Assembly (NCBI RefSeq): GCF_022984075.1 | Contig: NZ_JALAAD010000001.1 | Coordinates: forward strand, 682,001 to 746,000 | Direction: 5' to 3' | DNA from: Synechococcus sp. C9 | GTDB lineage: Bacteria > Cyanobacteriota > Cyanobacteriia > Gloeomargaritales > Gloeomargaritaceae | Length of the DNA stretch: 64,000 nucleotides | Shown here: in pieces, positions 11,839-62,147 of the stretch | How positions within the stretch are numbered: the stretch's first letter is position 1 | How the letters are laid out: each line of letters opens with the position of its first letter | Position numbers and translations under genes: made by a program | Notes under the pieces: generated by a model | Seen by the model: only the letters and a program-made list of their open reading frames with translations | What the model was told of the DNA's origin: nothing | Database searches by the model: none

Positions 11839-14800
11839 TTACCAGGGGCTACCGATGAGGGTAAACGCCGCCCAGTAGTAGGGATGGTTCAACACCTGAT
11901 CCCCCCGCTGGGCAATCGCTGACGGCACCGGAATGCCGCCCCGCACCCCCCGCAGTTCGCCCCCTTTAATCGTGACTTTCCCTCGCAACATGGCAATTTG
12001 CGCCTGCCGCAATGCCTCCGCCTTGATGGGTGCCTGCCGCAGATTTTTGTAAAACTCGGTCATCAACGCCAGGGTGCCCTCATCCGACACATACCACAGG
12101 GAAGCTAGGGCACTTTTCACCCCCGCCTGCACCGCCAAACCCGCAAACCCCAATTCCGCACTCACATCCCCCACCGACGTCCGACAGGCACTCAGGGTCA
12201 ACAATTCCACCACATTCGGTTCCCGCAGAGGCAATTGCCGCAGTTGAGGTAAATTCAACCGTTGATTGTTGCCAAATTCAATGTAAGAATCGCTCAATCG
12301 TCCCGGGGCAAAATCCGCATGGGTCGCCAAGTGGATGATGGGATAACCGCCCTGCAATCGCTCCTGGGTCAAGCGTTGCACCGTAAATTCCTGATTCAAA
12401 AAGGACTGCCCCGGCCATTCCTCCGTAATCACCTTCAATTCCACCGGTACCGCTGGTAAAGGCGCTTGATTGGCAAAGGTATCGGCCCCCATCGCCAACA
12501 CCCGACTATCCCGCAGGTTGCGGTAACGGGTATCAATCAAATTCACGCTGGGAATCAGAGCCGTGCTGTATTTTTCCACCAAAAACCGCTGGCCATCATG
12601 CAGAGCCGCCACGGGCAATAACCGCAAGCCATTGTCCATCGAGAACAGCAGGGTATCAATCCCCTGGGCTTGCAATTCTTTTTCAATGGGCGCAATGAAC
12701 CACCGGTACAACTGCTGGGCATCTTTTAGGTAAGCATCGCTGGTACGCTGGCGGGGGTCTCTCAAAGCATTCAAAAATCGTTCCACCACCGGCATCAAGT
12801 TGGCTCGTTTCGCTTCAGGAATCCCCCGCACCACGGGCTGGACTTTGGCTTCCCGCTGGGCAAATGGCTCGGTGGACGCAACCAAACCTGCTCTAGCCAC
12901 CCCTGCCCGACTCCCCGGCGGAATAGCGGCAATCGTCAACTGCTGTTCATCCACCACCAAATAAACAATGGCGGTTTTTTTGCCCGTTTCCTTAGCCAAG
13001 CGACTGAGCATATTCCCAATCGCTTCGACCGAGTTTAAGTTATTAATGGGGCTGACTCCTAAAAAGCGATCAAATTCCTTGGTAAATAAGGTATCTAGTG
13101 GCAAAATTGCCGCAAAATCCCCGCTACCTAATGCTGTTCTGATTTCCCCGCCAAAAGGGACAATACTAGTAGTTCCCTCTTGGGGAGTTTGGATAGTACC
13201 GGAATCAATTACAAGGAGACCATCCCCAGAAAAACTTTCCAGGCTACCAGTATTGATATTGCCGCCTGCACCCAAAAAGATACCTTCACTGGTAATATCA
13301 CCGGTTTGGATATTGCCAAACTCATTAACAATCAGGACAACCCCGGCAAGACTCAATAGTTCAGCGGTATTGATACTACTTGCCTCCCCAAAGGTAGCAA
13401 TACCAATGCTTCCCAAGAGGGTAGCGATATTACCAGTACGGATATTGCCGGAAGTGCTAACAATGAAAACATCCCCAAGCAAGGTAATGATATCGCCGGT
13501 TTGGATATTGCCGAACTCGCTAATAATATTGACATTCCCAAGGGCAGAAGTGATGTTACCAGATTTAACATTACCGGAAGTGCTACCAGTGCTACCGACG
13601 AGGACATCCAAAGAAGCAGTAATATCACCGGTTTCAATGTTGCCGGACTCGCTGACAACGCTAACTTTCCCAAGGTCAGAAGTAAGATTACCGGTTACAA
13701 TATCACTGGCAATGCTCGCAACATTTATATCCCCAAGTTCAGAAGTGAGATTACCAGTTTGGATAGTGCCGGAAGTGCTACCAGTGCTACCGATGAGGAC
13801 ATCCAAGGAAGCAGTTATATCACCGGTTTGAATGTTACCAACCTCGCTCACAACACTGACATTCCCAAGGGCAGAAGTGATGTTACCAGATTTAACATTA
13901 CCGGAAGTGCTACCAGTGTTACCGACGAGGACATCAAAAGAAGCAGTGATATCACCGGTTTGAATATTACCAACCTCGCTCACAACACTGACATTCCCAA
14001 AAGAACTTTGTAAATCACCCGTATTGATGCTACCATCTGAAGTCAAAGCAATGCCTTCGGTTGCGACAATATCGCCTGTAGAGATACCATTTCCTGCCCT
14101 GAAAGACACCTCCCCATCGGATAAAGAAATCAAGGCATTGGCATTGATAGTGTTATCCGCAGAGAACGATAGACTGAGACCAGAACCAGAAATTTGATTG
14201 CTAATAGTAATATTATTGCCTGCATCTATTGACAAAGTAGTATCGCCAAAAGTTCCAACAATGTCACCGTTAAAAGTAATATCATTGCTCGCCCGAAGTA
14301 CCACATTATTTGTAGATAATTGAGAAACCAAGGCAGTATTACTAATAAACACGTCCCGTCCTGGTATGGCAAGGAAAAGGATCAGTGGCAATCGATTATC
14401 ATCAGGCGCACTAAACGCATCAATTAAGGTGATATTTACGGTAATATTGACTGGATCAAGCAGGAGGGTACCTGTCTTGCCCTTAGGTGCCGACGTATCC
14501 ACATTCCCCGTGAATCTTAAACTTTCTTTCCCCGATACTTCCACCAATCCCCCATCCCCAGCGTTCTGTCCTCCCTTGGCGGTGATCCTGCCCCGAAAAT
14601 CCGTCCCCTTGTCCGCCCACACAATCACCCTGCCTCCATCTCCAGAGTTAACCGCATCGGCAGTTAATTGAGAATCACGACTCACAAACGTATATTGGGC
14701 GTTGGGTTGTGTCCCTTTGCCCTGAAATTCACCCCCGATTAAAATCTCACCGCCCCCGGTAAATCCTGAAGCGTTAATTTCACTGTTTACTAAGGCGATT

Positions 14801-60530: not shown

Positions 60531-60619
60531 ACATCCCATGACACGAATAAAAGTGTACTGGGCTGGTTGCCACCCCAAAAAGTGTCCTATGGTGTGGATC
60601 AGCCAGTTGAGGTTTGCCC

Positions 60620-61762
60620 GTGCCAAGTGGGGCGGAGGTGGGGTTAATTTTTGCCCTGGGATTTTTGGGAAGTTTCGGTCACTGCGCCGGGATGTGTGGG
60701 CCACTGGTGTTGGGCGTGGCTTGGGGGCAAAAACATCTGACCTGGGGGCAACGGTGGCGGCAACAGGTGGGATTGCATCTGGGACGGGTGTTGACCTACG
60801 CCGGGGTGGGGGCACTCTTGGGGCAGGCGGGTTCCCTATTGGTCGCCGGGGGGCAACTGGCGGGGGTGGGCAGTGGGGTGCGCCAGGGGGTGACGGTGGC
60901 GGTGGGGTTGCTGTTGATCTGGAGCGGTTGGCGTTCCCAGGTGCCGAACTGGTTGCGCTGGGGCTGGCATCCCCGGGGAAATCCCCCTCAAAATCCGGTG
61001 CTTTTGGGTGTGTTGTGGGGGCTGATTCCCTGCGGTTTTTTGTATGTGGCGCAATTGCAGGCGGTGGCGACCCTCAATCCCTGGGCGGGGGCGGTCTTGC
61101 TGGGGGCATTTGGGTTGGGAACCGTGCCGGTGTTGTTGGGGCTGGGGCTGTGGTTGAGCCGGGTGGGGACGGAGCGGGGGCAACAACTGAGCCGTTGGGC
61201 GGGGCGCTTGACCGTTCTGATGGGGGTATTGATGCTCCTGCGGACAGACAGCATGGTGGACATCACTGGCTATGGCAGTTTGCTCCTGCTGGGGCTGGCA
61301 TTGCTGGCACGACCTCTGCAACGGCTGTGGGGGGGATTGCGTCCCCTGCGGCGGCACTTGGGGGTGGGGGCGTTTGTCCTGGCGGGGCTTCATACCCTGC
61401 ACATGGTGGAACACAGTTTTCAGTGGGATTTGCTGGGAATTTTCTTTTTGCCACCGCTGCCATTTTGGGGCATCATACTCGGTACTCTCGGACTGGGACT
61501 GATGGTGCCCTTGGCTGTGACCAGTACGGATGGCTGGGTACGCCGGTTGGGCAAGCGTTGGCACCAATTACATCGTTGGGCGATAGGGATATGGTTCCTG
61601 GTGGGGGCGCATATTGGCTTACTCATGGGGGCACGGTGGGGAATCCTCGGCAATGTCACGTTTATTTTGGGGATAATTTTGGTAATCCTTCTGCGACAAT
61701 CCTGGTGGTGGCGGTGGTGGGGGCGAGAGGCGTGGTATGAACCGGCTGATGTTGGGTATTAG
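60620..61762 (+). CDS. Membrane fusion: TauE/UreH-like domain plus MsrQ/YedZ-like haem domain
   Basis: A 380-residue polytopic protein. The N-terminal 190 residues are a UreH_2/TauE-like transporter domain with the paired-cysteine motif GHCAGMCGPLVLGVAWG at its start and a second proline-cysteine site WGLIPCGFLYVAQLQAV. The C-terminal 170 residues resemble the ferric-reductase/MsrQ haem-b domain: GAFVLAGLHTLHMVEHS and RLGKRWHQLHRWAIGIWFLV, with haem-ligand-like histidines. Together these suggest electron or metal transfer across the membrane. GTG 60620 or TTG 60614 is the start. It overlaps the next gene by 26 bp. Confidence 0.75.
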   Translation: MPSGAEVGLIFALGFLGSFGHCAGMCGPLVLGVAWGQKHLTWGQRWRQQVGLHLGRVLTYAGVGALLGQAGSLLVAGGQLAGVGSGVRQGVTVAVGLLLIWSGWRSQVPNWLRWGWHPRGNPPQNPVLLGVLWGLIPCGFLYVAQLQAVATLNPWAGAVLLGAFGLGTVPVLLGLGLWLSRVGTERGQQLSRWAGRLTVLMGVLMLLRTDSMVDITGYGSLLLLGLALLARPLQRLWGGLRPLRRHLGVGAFVLAGLHTLHMVEHSFQWDLLGIFFLPPLPFWGIILGTLGLGLMVPLAVTSTDGWVRRLGKRWHQLHRWAIGIWFLVGAHIGLLMGARWGILGNVTFILGIILVILLRQSWWWRWWGREAWYEPADVGY

Positions 61763-62147
61763 CGTTGCACTGGGGTTGGGCGTTCCGGTTTTTGCCCACA
61801 CGGTACAGCGGGCTGGGAATGTGGCAGTACTGTGGCACGTGGCACCCAACCACAACCCCCGGGCGGGACAACCTGCGCAGGTTTGGGTCGCACTCACTCG
61901 CCGGGGTGGGCAACCGATTTTTAACCGGGAAGTCGCCTGCACCTTGCAAATACGCCAGGAACCCCAGGGCACCCTGCTGGTGACCACCCGTTTACAGGGG
62001 ATCAATGTGGAACGCTATCGGGACACCCCTGCGGCTACGGTGACCTTTCCCCAACCGGGTCGTTACCAATTGGGCTTGGCGTGTCAACCCAAAACCGCCG
62101 ATTTGAAACCCTTTTCCTTCACCTATGGGGTAACGGTGGGGCGGTAA
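61737..62147 (+). CDS. Exported FixH/YtkA-like beta-sandwich protein
   Basis: A 136-residue protein with an N-terminal signal peptide or anchor (MNRLMLGISVALGLGVPVFA). The mature part HTVQRAGNVAVLWHVAPNHN, PRAGQPAQVWVALTRRGG and PQPGRYQLGLACQP has strand patterns of FixH/CopC/YtkA-type periplasmic proteins, often involved in copper handling. It begins inside the preceding fusion gene, so cotranslation is likely and a common function with it is inferred. Confidence 0.65.
   Translation: MNRLMLGISVALGLGVPVFAHTVQRAGNVAVLWHVAPNHNPRAGQPAQVWVALTRRGGQPIFNREVACTLQIRQEPQGTLLVTTRLQGINVERYRDTPAATVTFPQPGRYQLGLACQPKTADLKPFSFTYGVTVGR

Follow-up and report, generated by a model that had tools for sequence, protein, structure and literature searches.

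The described systems closest to the locus considered here are the MsrQ/YedZ family, the STEAP metalloreductases, which are animal cupric and ferric reductases, the DsbD_2 membrane proteins, the FetP/P19/FtrA and CrdA proteins, YcnJ of Bacillus subtilis and the PetRP regulon of Synechocystis. The locus itself is a pair of genes in a 64,000-nucleotide stretch of the Synechococcus sp. C9 genome (contig NZ_JALAAD010000001.1, positions 682,001 to 746,000; the window), which encode a membrane fusion protein (the fusion) and an exported protein (the partner), and for which a role as a copper-deficiency-induced reductive copper acquisition system is proposed here with about even confidence. In YedZ and STEAP proteins, an Arg replaces the first haem-spanning His, and three of the four haem histidines are retained by YedZ and STEAP1 (PMC3591440). 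YcnJ, of CopC-CopD-YtkA architecture, combines an extracellular Cu(II) site with a membrane domain and is needed in copper starvation (PMC13344008). Membrane haem cupric reductases have been described in eukaryotes, and CcoG, termed the first specific bacterial cupric reductase, uses iron-sulfur clusters (PMC7558416). Copper entry into the cyanobacterial cytosol is unsettled, because CtaA is credited with copper import by one review (PMC12292863) and is called an exporter by another (PMC7558416). In Synechocystis, PetR acts as repressor of petE and activator of petJ and is degraded by PetP in the presence of copper; besides petE and petJ, the reported four-gene regulon contains two genes without known function (PMC7896320), namely slr0601 and slr0602 (PMC12382314).

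The C-terminal half of the fusion is similar to MsrQ/YedZ, with His91, His151 and His164 of the Escherichia coli protein aligning with His258, His318 and His331, but the fusion adds a DsbD_2 domain and His261/His265, and its own genome lacks an MsrP match. Residues 208-371 share the STEAP fold and the Arg in place of the first haem-spanning His, whereas the fusion is bacterial, has no oxidoreductase domain and joins its haem half to a transporter-like half. With the DsbD_2 membrane proteins, the fusion has a whole-domain profile match in common, to which it adds the haem half. YcnJ, with its extracellular copper site linked to a membrane domain, resembles the pair in its proposed role, but is one polypeptide, has another membrane domain and has no haem half. 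The relation to the PetRP regulon lies in the same sensor family and, judging by the motif, probably the same operator type, and the pair is outside the four published members. The nearest working analogue would be Bacillus YcnJ and the nearest redox analogue would be STEAP. Each half of the fusion and the fold of the partner are already known; their combination, their tight pairing and the PetR-type motif upstream of them were not found in print, the literature search having returned no paper on the pair or its motif, with the original PetRP study outside that search.

The fusion is a single membrane protein in which, as originally predicted, a GHCAGMCG cysteine pair stands at the N-terminal start and histidine-bearing helices at the C-terminal end. 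Its first half, predicted to be TauE/UreH-like, matches DsbD_2 (PF13386; 129.9 bits against a Pfam cut-off of 24.9, residues 12-206 numbered from an upstream TTG, profile positions 2-199 of 199), a family also called UreH_2 and annotated as 'sulfite exporter TauE/SafE', and does not match Pfam TauE. The second half matches Ferric_reduct (35.9 bits against a Pfam cut-off of 28, E 8.8e-9, residues 228-329 in the TTG numbering). The same fusion was found in other genomes, with 404 relatives in the GTDB collection, the best 80 of which were fetched and are all cyanobacterial by title. All 47 aligned proteins, comprising the window protein and 46 of those 80 relatives, contain both families (E 0.01 for DsbD_2), and seven of the 47 also match DsbD_TM. 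The fusion of a DsbD_2 half with a ferric-reductase-type half is real and not a chance arrangement.

The residue pattern of the second half is that of the YedZ/STEAP branch. In that branch, His115, His209 and His222 (NOX numbering) are kept and the first His is exchanged for Arg (PMC3591440), and the corresponding residues of the fusion are His258, His318, His331 and Arg245. The haem half is 33% identical to E. coli MsrQ over 135 columns, and the MsrQ equivalog (NCBIfam NF003831) scores 52 bits against a cut-off of 130, so the half is MsrQ-like yet outside the equivalog. In the alignment, E. coli MsrQ has no counterparts of His261 and His265. In a separate alignment (A1; the window protein and 33 others, n = 34), His261 is kept in 30 sequences and His265 in 31. 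A His265 equivalent is also kept in L178, L179, L180 and L184, which from size and position appear to be stand-alone haem proteins of Gloeobacter-like genomes, and is not kept in two further stand-alone haem proteins, L181 and L182.

The AlphaFold2 model of the fusion has a mean predicted local distance difference test score (pLDDT) of 82.7 and a predicted template modelling score of 0.60. Residues 208-371 align with STEAP1, STEAP2 and STEAP4 at Z scores of 14.1, 14.0 and 13.5 (root mean square deviation 3.6-4.2 over 153-162 residues; VIA-align), with cytochrome b561 at 13.5 and with NADPH oxidases at 9.5-13.0, where apparently unrelated rows appear from 9.2 down and Z scores up to ~13 can be common for helical proteins, so that STEAP at 14 is barely higher. 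Foldseek returned no match with E < 0.001 for the fusion model. Owing to this and to the caution on helical Z scores, the haem assignment leans mainly on the profile and the histidines. Similarity of the C-terminal half to ferric-reductase-like domains was nonetheless found by both profile and structure comparison, and the MsrQ-like haem half of the original prediction stands on the Ferric_reduct profile, the STEAP-like model and the aligned MsrQ histidines. Matches of the N-terminal half to Rnf and Nqr subunits (Z 8.6 and 7.8) were weak and were not used. Across the 47 members, the predicted inner loops carry on average 1.6-4.7 Lys/Arg per loop and the predicted outer loops 0-1.1. Together with the helices of the model, these counts suggest 11 membrane helices with the N terminus out and the C terminus in. 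In this topology, His258 and His331 would sit close to the periplasmic face, and the first helix would have Cys22/Cys26 at its inner end. Searches found no viral relatives and no solved-structure relatives by sequence.

The partner follows directly, its open reading frame (ORF) overlapping the end of the fusion ORF by 26 bp as predicted. It had been described as an exported FixH/YtkA-like protein. The signal-peptide-like start agrees with export, a signal-peptidase-like pattern ending right before His21 in 26/32 sequences of one alignment (A2) and in 35/35 of another (A4). The FixH/YtkA label is not retained: neither Pfam profile matches the window partner (E 1) or 35 aligned partners (E 0.1), and FixH identity was rejected. 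The window partner has no NCBIfam match and, in Pfam, PKD alone at a sub-threshold score. The partner model (pLDDT 89.4) aligns with FetP at Z 13.6 (root mean square deviation 2.2, 106 residues), with other P19/FtrA/HftA proteins, and with Helicobacter pylori CrdA at Z 12.9 over 101 residues, and its best Foldseek E value of 5.1e-5 places it with the P19/FetP/FtrA fold. The likeness to copper proteins, many of the matched entries being copper-bound by title, is in keeping with the exported metal-protein-like partner that had been predicted. It is a likeness of fold but not of sequence, with ~10% identity, no sequence-profile match and no P19/FetP chain among 6 PDB matches (E 10). CrdA binds Cu(II) with micromolar affinity and is described as having no His or Cys (PMC9182242), so the ligands of the partner differ from those of CrdA. 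The probable His at the mature N terminus of the partner recalls CopC-type copper sites, and His34 is a second invariant His.

Fusion and partner occur together in nearly every genome that has the fusion. Among 388 cyanobacterial genomes, the fusion is found in 212 (best E below 1e-50, a cut chosen in this analysis; 35 further genomes with weak matches only are scored as lacking it), the partner in 226 and both in 211; the fusion stands without the partner in one genome, which is 85% complete, the partner without the fusion in 15, and neither is present in 161. In a set of 59 relatives, fusion and partner each match in 41. Within the loci of the best 80 of the 404 relatives, the partner is present in 63 and lies directly downstream on the same strand in 62. 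Since the two genes can also lie apart (e.g. G015, G025 and G041), their co-occurrence does not come from adjacency alone. The fusion is present in Synechococcus sp. C9 and four of six genus neighbours, and genus members G001 and G003 lack both genes. The PetR-listed genomes of families f31 and f36 show neither a strong fusion match nor a match to the partner. Plastocyanin presence was of no use as a predictor of the pair, with a match in 52/59 genomes. Two Gloeobacter-like genomes (L089 and L090), in which no fusion was detected, encode the haem protein on its own and have the partner next to a divergent petJ and PetR-like sites, an arrangement that is maybe ancestral. In a third (L091:8090-9043), a multicopper-oxidase-like gene is near the partner.

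The link to copper regulation is provided by a motif, GTCAAAAGACNNNNNGTCA, which was initially spotted by visual inspection of the intergenic sequence on the petR side in L057, L072, L189 and L190. With two or fewer mismatches allowed, 66 of 116 loci, L057 and L072 among them, have it in the 1,200 bp preceding the fusion. The 116 comprise 36 loci and the best 80 of 404; at least four pairs are the same record twice (L053/L093, L055/L094, L056/L095 and L058/L146), none with the motif. Of 88 hits in 2,084,085 bp, 67 are inside the 145,003 bp upstream of fusions, and 100 letter-shuffled motifs reached at most 7 loci (mean 0.96). The gene next upstream of the site is on the strand of the fusion in 19 of the 66 loci and divergent in 47; in those 19 the site cannot serve a divergent gene, and the site thus tracks the fusion rather than one divergent gene, with sharing possible. 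Exact sites occur in 188/249 genomes with PetR (E 1e-20, a cut chosen in this analysis) and in 9/139 without it; Fisher values for this contrast and for the co-occurrence counts among the 388 genomes are descriptive only, as the species are related. In a set with one locus per genome (37 genomes, Synechococcus sp. C9 included), a site lies up to 2.5 kb upstream of the fusion in 13/22 PetR genomes and in 1/15 without PetR, the latter 87% complete. Where G333, G374 and G335 have an additional partner copy at a distance from the fusion, that copy also has the motif 140-163 bp upstream.

In 20 PetR genomes that lack the pair, 29 exact sites are found in 14 genomes, against one for the backward control. 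The corresponding loci (L193-L221), which were fetched through the exact motif itself, have petJ nearby in 15, petE in 6 and petR in 4. A small protein is encoded downstream of the site in 12 examined loci. In L197, L199-L205, L207, L208 and L216, it carries an ITPTG motif, is mostly ~116-126 residues long and could be the Slr0601 family; if so, the motif distribution fits the published PetRP regulon.

The orientation of the site differs between gene classes. Among pairs within 450 bp, the site is opposite to the gene for petJ (30/34), the fusion (50/51) and c7 (15/15), a gene for an exported His-rich protein, and in the same orientation as the gene for petE (11/11) and petR (10/10). The 11 petE pairs come down to seven distinct sites, spread over four genomes; three of the four have their sites between divergent petE and petJ, so that the petE and petJ orientations are not independent, and the petE site in L219 stands alone. 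Where loci overlap, some petJ pairs are counted twice, and a single site can be common to petR and either petJ or the fusion. In its arrangement the pair is of the petJ type and is hence presumably activated. From this orientation, the pair is predicted to be switched on together with cytochrome c6 when copper runs out, the motif being a putative PetR operator.

The genes around the pair point in the same direction, and together with the motif the petJ/petRP neighbours support the copper link of the original prediction. Upstream of the fusion on its strand are c7 in 17/116 loci and the cytochrome c6 gene petJ in 10/116; a PetR-like BlaI repressor is encoded upstream in 6/116 and a PetP-like M56 protease in 6/116. 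In L072, petPR is divergent from petJ-fusion-partner; in L190, it is divergent from fusion-partner; and in L062 and L063, petJ is 3 bp upstream of the fusion. By eye, petR lies within 10 kb of the fusion in at least 18 genomes of eight families. A published analysis of petR context names petP, comB and petJ (PMC9252766). In L189 (1-4389), a PepSY_TM gene (E 4.4e-76), c7 and one of two partner copies follow one another, divergent from petRP, and the fusion of that genome is on another contig. The PepSY_TM family comprises haem reductases of the periplasm, among them a putative copper reductase (PMC13038864), and this locus suggests that such a protein, of another haem reductase family, can stand in for the fusion.

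The cytochrome oxidase maturation locus that had been envisaged is not supported by the neighbourhood, the recurrent copper-related neighbours being cytochrome c6, PetR, PetP, c7 and, in four loci (L106, L131, L132 and L169), subunit I of a cytochrome bd oxidase, whose gene follows downstream at the second or third position on the same strand. The subunit was identified by Pfam on L106 (421 bits; 12135-13352) and by cluster on the other three. Cytochrome bd oxidase is not known to need copper. The c7 family (~140-230 residues; e.g. L097:6955-7434, and 16 other loci) could be assigned to neither a Pfam nor an NCBIfam family from its scanned members and, with PetR-type sites in petJ orientation in 15 loci, is a candidate copper-binding protein. 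Other recurrent neighbours (M28 peptidase, epimerase and ABC exporter) look unrelated.

The fusion, its haem-ligand pattern, its co-occurrence with the partner, the motif and the petJ/petRP neighbourhood form the computed basis of the proposed copper acquisition system, and from them we infer haem binding, copper binding, reduction and the direction of transport. In this system, the exported partner would collect periplasmic copper, probably Cu(II), via its mature N-terminal His, His34 and Cys68. The haem half would then generate Cu(I) from it at the periplasmic side, close to His258/His261/His265. For MsrQ, electron supply from the quinone pool or from a cytosolic flavin reductase has been proposed, and either could feed the haem half. 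The DsbD_2 half would pass Cu(I) across the membrane via Cys22/Met25/Cys26 and Cys138 to cytosolic copper carriers, and the fusion may thereby couple metal transport with electron transfer, as had been suggested. In many PetR-bearing cyanobacteria, the operon, with its PetR-type motif, would be induced with cytochrome c6 on copper depletion. The fuller form of the proposal is held more tentatively, at somewhat less than even confidence: a protein that unites a haem cupric reductase with a Cu(I) channel, equipped with its own periplasmic copper-capturing protein, would be the copper importer that cyanobacteria induce in copper starvation and would constitute a main branch of the PetR regulon.

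A first alternative, which is fairly unlikely, confines the pair to the periplasm or lumen, where the haem half would reduce Cu(II) and the partner would hand Cu(I) to cytochrome oxidase or plastocyanin, with no import. An exported, copper-protein-like partner would suit this role, and the PepSY_TM protein that can precede a partner copy has a relative, CrpH, for which a periplasmic role in oxidase function is proposed (PMC13038864). This reading does not, however, account for the DsbD_2 half, which is conserved and has three invariant Cys, and no haem-copper oxidase is present among 20 scanned neighbour or partner proteins, the sole oxidase being of the bd type.

In a second alternative, which we consider unlikely, the fusion is a DsbD/CcdA-like thiol conduit, in which electrons exchanged between the haem and Cys22/Cys26/Cys138 keep periplasmic thiols reduced, either for the making of cytochrome c6 or for the partner CxC. 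In its favour are the kinship of DsbD_2 with DsbD_TM, which seven of the 47 members also match, and the recurrence of petJ as an upstream neighbour. Such a conduit would have a redox Cys pair in the first and fourth transmembrane helices; Cys22, Cys26 and Cys138 of the fusion are invariant. Against the conduit, the Synechococcus sp. C9 genome has a separate CcdA-like protein (236 residues, DsbD_TM match), the top 50 structural matches to the partner include no protein named as having a thioredoxin fold, and this genus retains only one Cys of the partner CxC, whereas His21 is invariant.

Reductive iron uptake, with a ferric reductase and a P19/FetP-like partner supplying iron when cytochrome c6 replaces plastocyanin, is quite improbable. 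The Ferric_reduct domain of the fusion and the best structural matches of the partner, P19/FetP/FtrA, which are copper-binding iron-uptake proteins, would agree with it, but the motif probably belongs to a copper sensor, the copper protein CrdA matches the partner nearly as well, and the same 20 scanned proteins include no Ftr1-type permease, the GTPase L142 matching FeoB_N weakly. Methionine sulfoxide repair, in which the haem half would feed an MsrP enzyme, is barely credible and MsrQ function was rejected: the three haem histidines are conserved and the MsrQ profile matches, but below its cut-off, and Oxidored_molyb (PF00174, MsrP) has 0 matches in the genome of Synechococcus sp. C9 and none in six genus neighbours, though Synechococcus sp. 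C9 and four of these carry the fusion.

Several points weigh against reductive copper import. The copper role is drawn from sequence, models and motif, and metal, haem and transport activity are inferred. P19/FetP proteins, which bind copper, are linked to iron uptake, and the substrate could therefore be iron. Co-regulation with cytochrome c6 equally fits a role in making cytochrome c6. The divergent gene is an M28 peptidase in 26 of the 66 loci and could share or own the site, and where one locus per genome is considered, nine of the 22 PetR genomes lack a site in the 2.5 kb preceding the fusion. PetR is absent from 35 of the 212 fusion genomes, Synechococcus sp. C9 among them, and plastocyanin does not track the pair, as G001 and G003, which lack the pair, also have a Copper-bind match. 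In the fusion model, the small excess of the STEAP Z scores over the helical background is joined by an N-terminal half that is less sure (block-mean pLDDT 58-61 for residues 71-90 and 47 for 111-120) and has no clear fold match.

In Synechococcus sp. C9 itself (G000, 2.96 Mb), there is no PF03965 match for PetR and no PetR-type site, so the pair is kept there under some other control; the genome has a cytochrome c6-like match elsewhere and a plastocyanin-type match. Across cyanobacteria, the pair, being conserved and accompanied by a copper-starvation motif, is a direct candidate for copper import that can be tested in model cyanobacteria, and the motif and its orientation rule are offered for testing by others. 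If the proposal is true, the PetR regulon extends beyond the four published genes, and the fusion would be a bacterial counterpart, in one polypeptide, of the eukaryotic 'metalloreductase plus copper channel'.

Features of the fusion-partner locus, in coordinates of the window
Feature	Position	Strand	Detail
Fusion gene: DsbD_2 (UreH_2-like) transmembrane half and MsrQ/STEAP-like haem half	60620..61762	+	380 amino acids, GTG start
Partner gene: exported beta-sandwich protein, FetP/P19/CrdA-like fold	61737..62147	+	136 amino acids, ATG start
GAGG, possible ribosome-binding site	60609..60612	+	Seven-base spacer before GTG, by reading
DsbD_2 domain, residues 10-204	60647..61231	+	Pfam, E 1.4e-37
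GHCAGMCG motif	60677..60700	+	His21, Cys22, Met25 and Cys26 invariant, 47/47
Pro137-Cys138-Gly139, third conserved Cys	61028..61036	+	Invariant, 47/47
Haem-type half, residues 208-371	61241..61732	+	Pfam and model; STEAP/cytochrome b561/NOX-like fold in model
Arg245, YedZ/STEAP signature arginine	61352..61354	+	13 residues before His258; 47/47; PMC3591440
His258, predicted haem ligand (E. coli MsrQ His91)	61391..61393	+	Alignment, 47/47
His261 and His265, candidate metal-docking site (putative role)	61400..61414	+	Each 46/47; predicted periplasmic end of His258 helix
His318 (E. coli MsrQ His151)	61571..61573	+	Alignment, 47/47
His331, predicted haem ligand (E. coli MsrQ His164)	61610..61612	+	Alignment, 47/47
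Predicted signal peptide of partner, residues 1-20 (...VFA)	61737..61796	+	Site proposed from pattern
His21 of partner, likely first mature residue	61797..61799	+	Invariant, 32/32 (A2) and 35/35 (A4)
His34 of partner	61836..61838	+	Invariant
Cys68 of partner	61938..61940	+	Invariant; CxC in 26/32 A2 rows, VxC in this genus

The GTG taken as the start of the fusion gene is the position of the first start codon in three of four genus relatives (L053, L054 and L055, not L056), and an alternative TTG start six bases 5' of it is possible. The sequence GGGCACCGCCCC has seven copies in the window against 1.33 expected, at positions 27, 30118, 30221, 34786, 40508, 60405 and 60489, and is possibly a dispersed repeat of the Synechococcus sp. 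C9 genome; the last two copies are in the intergenic region directly 5' of the fusion gene.

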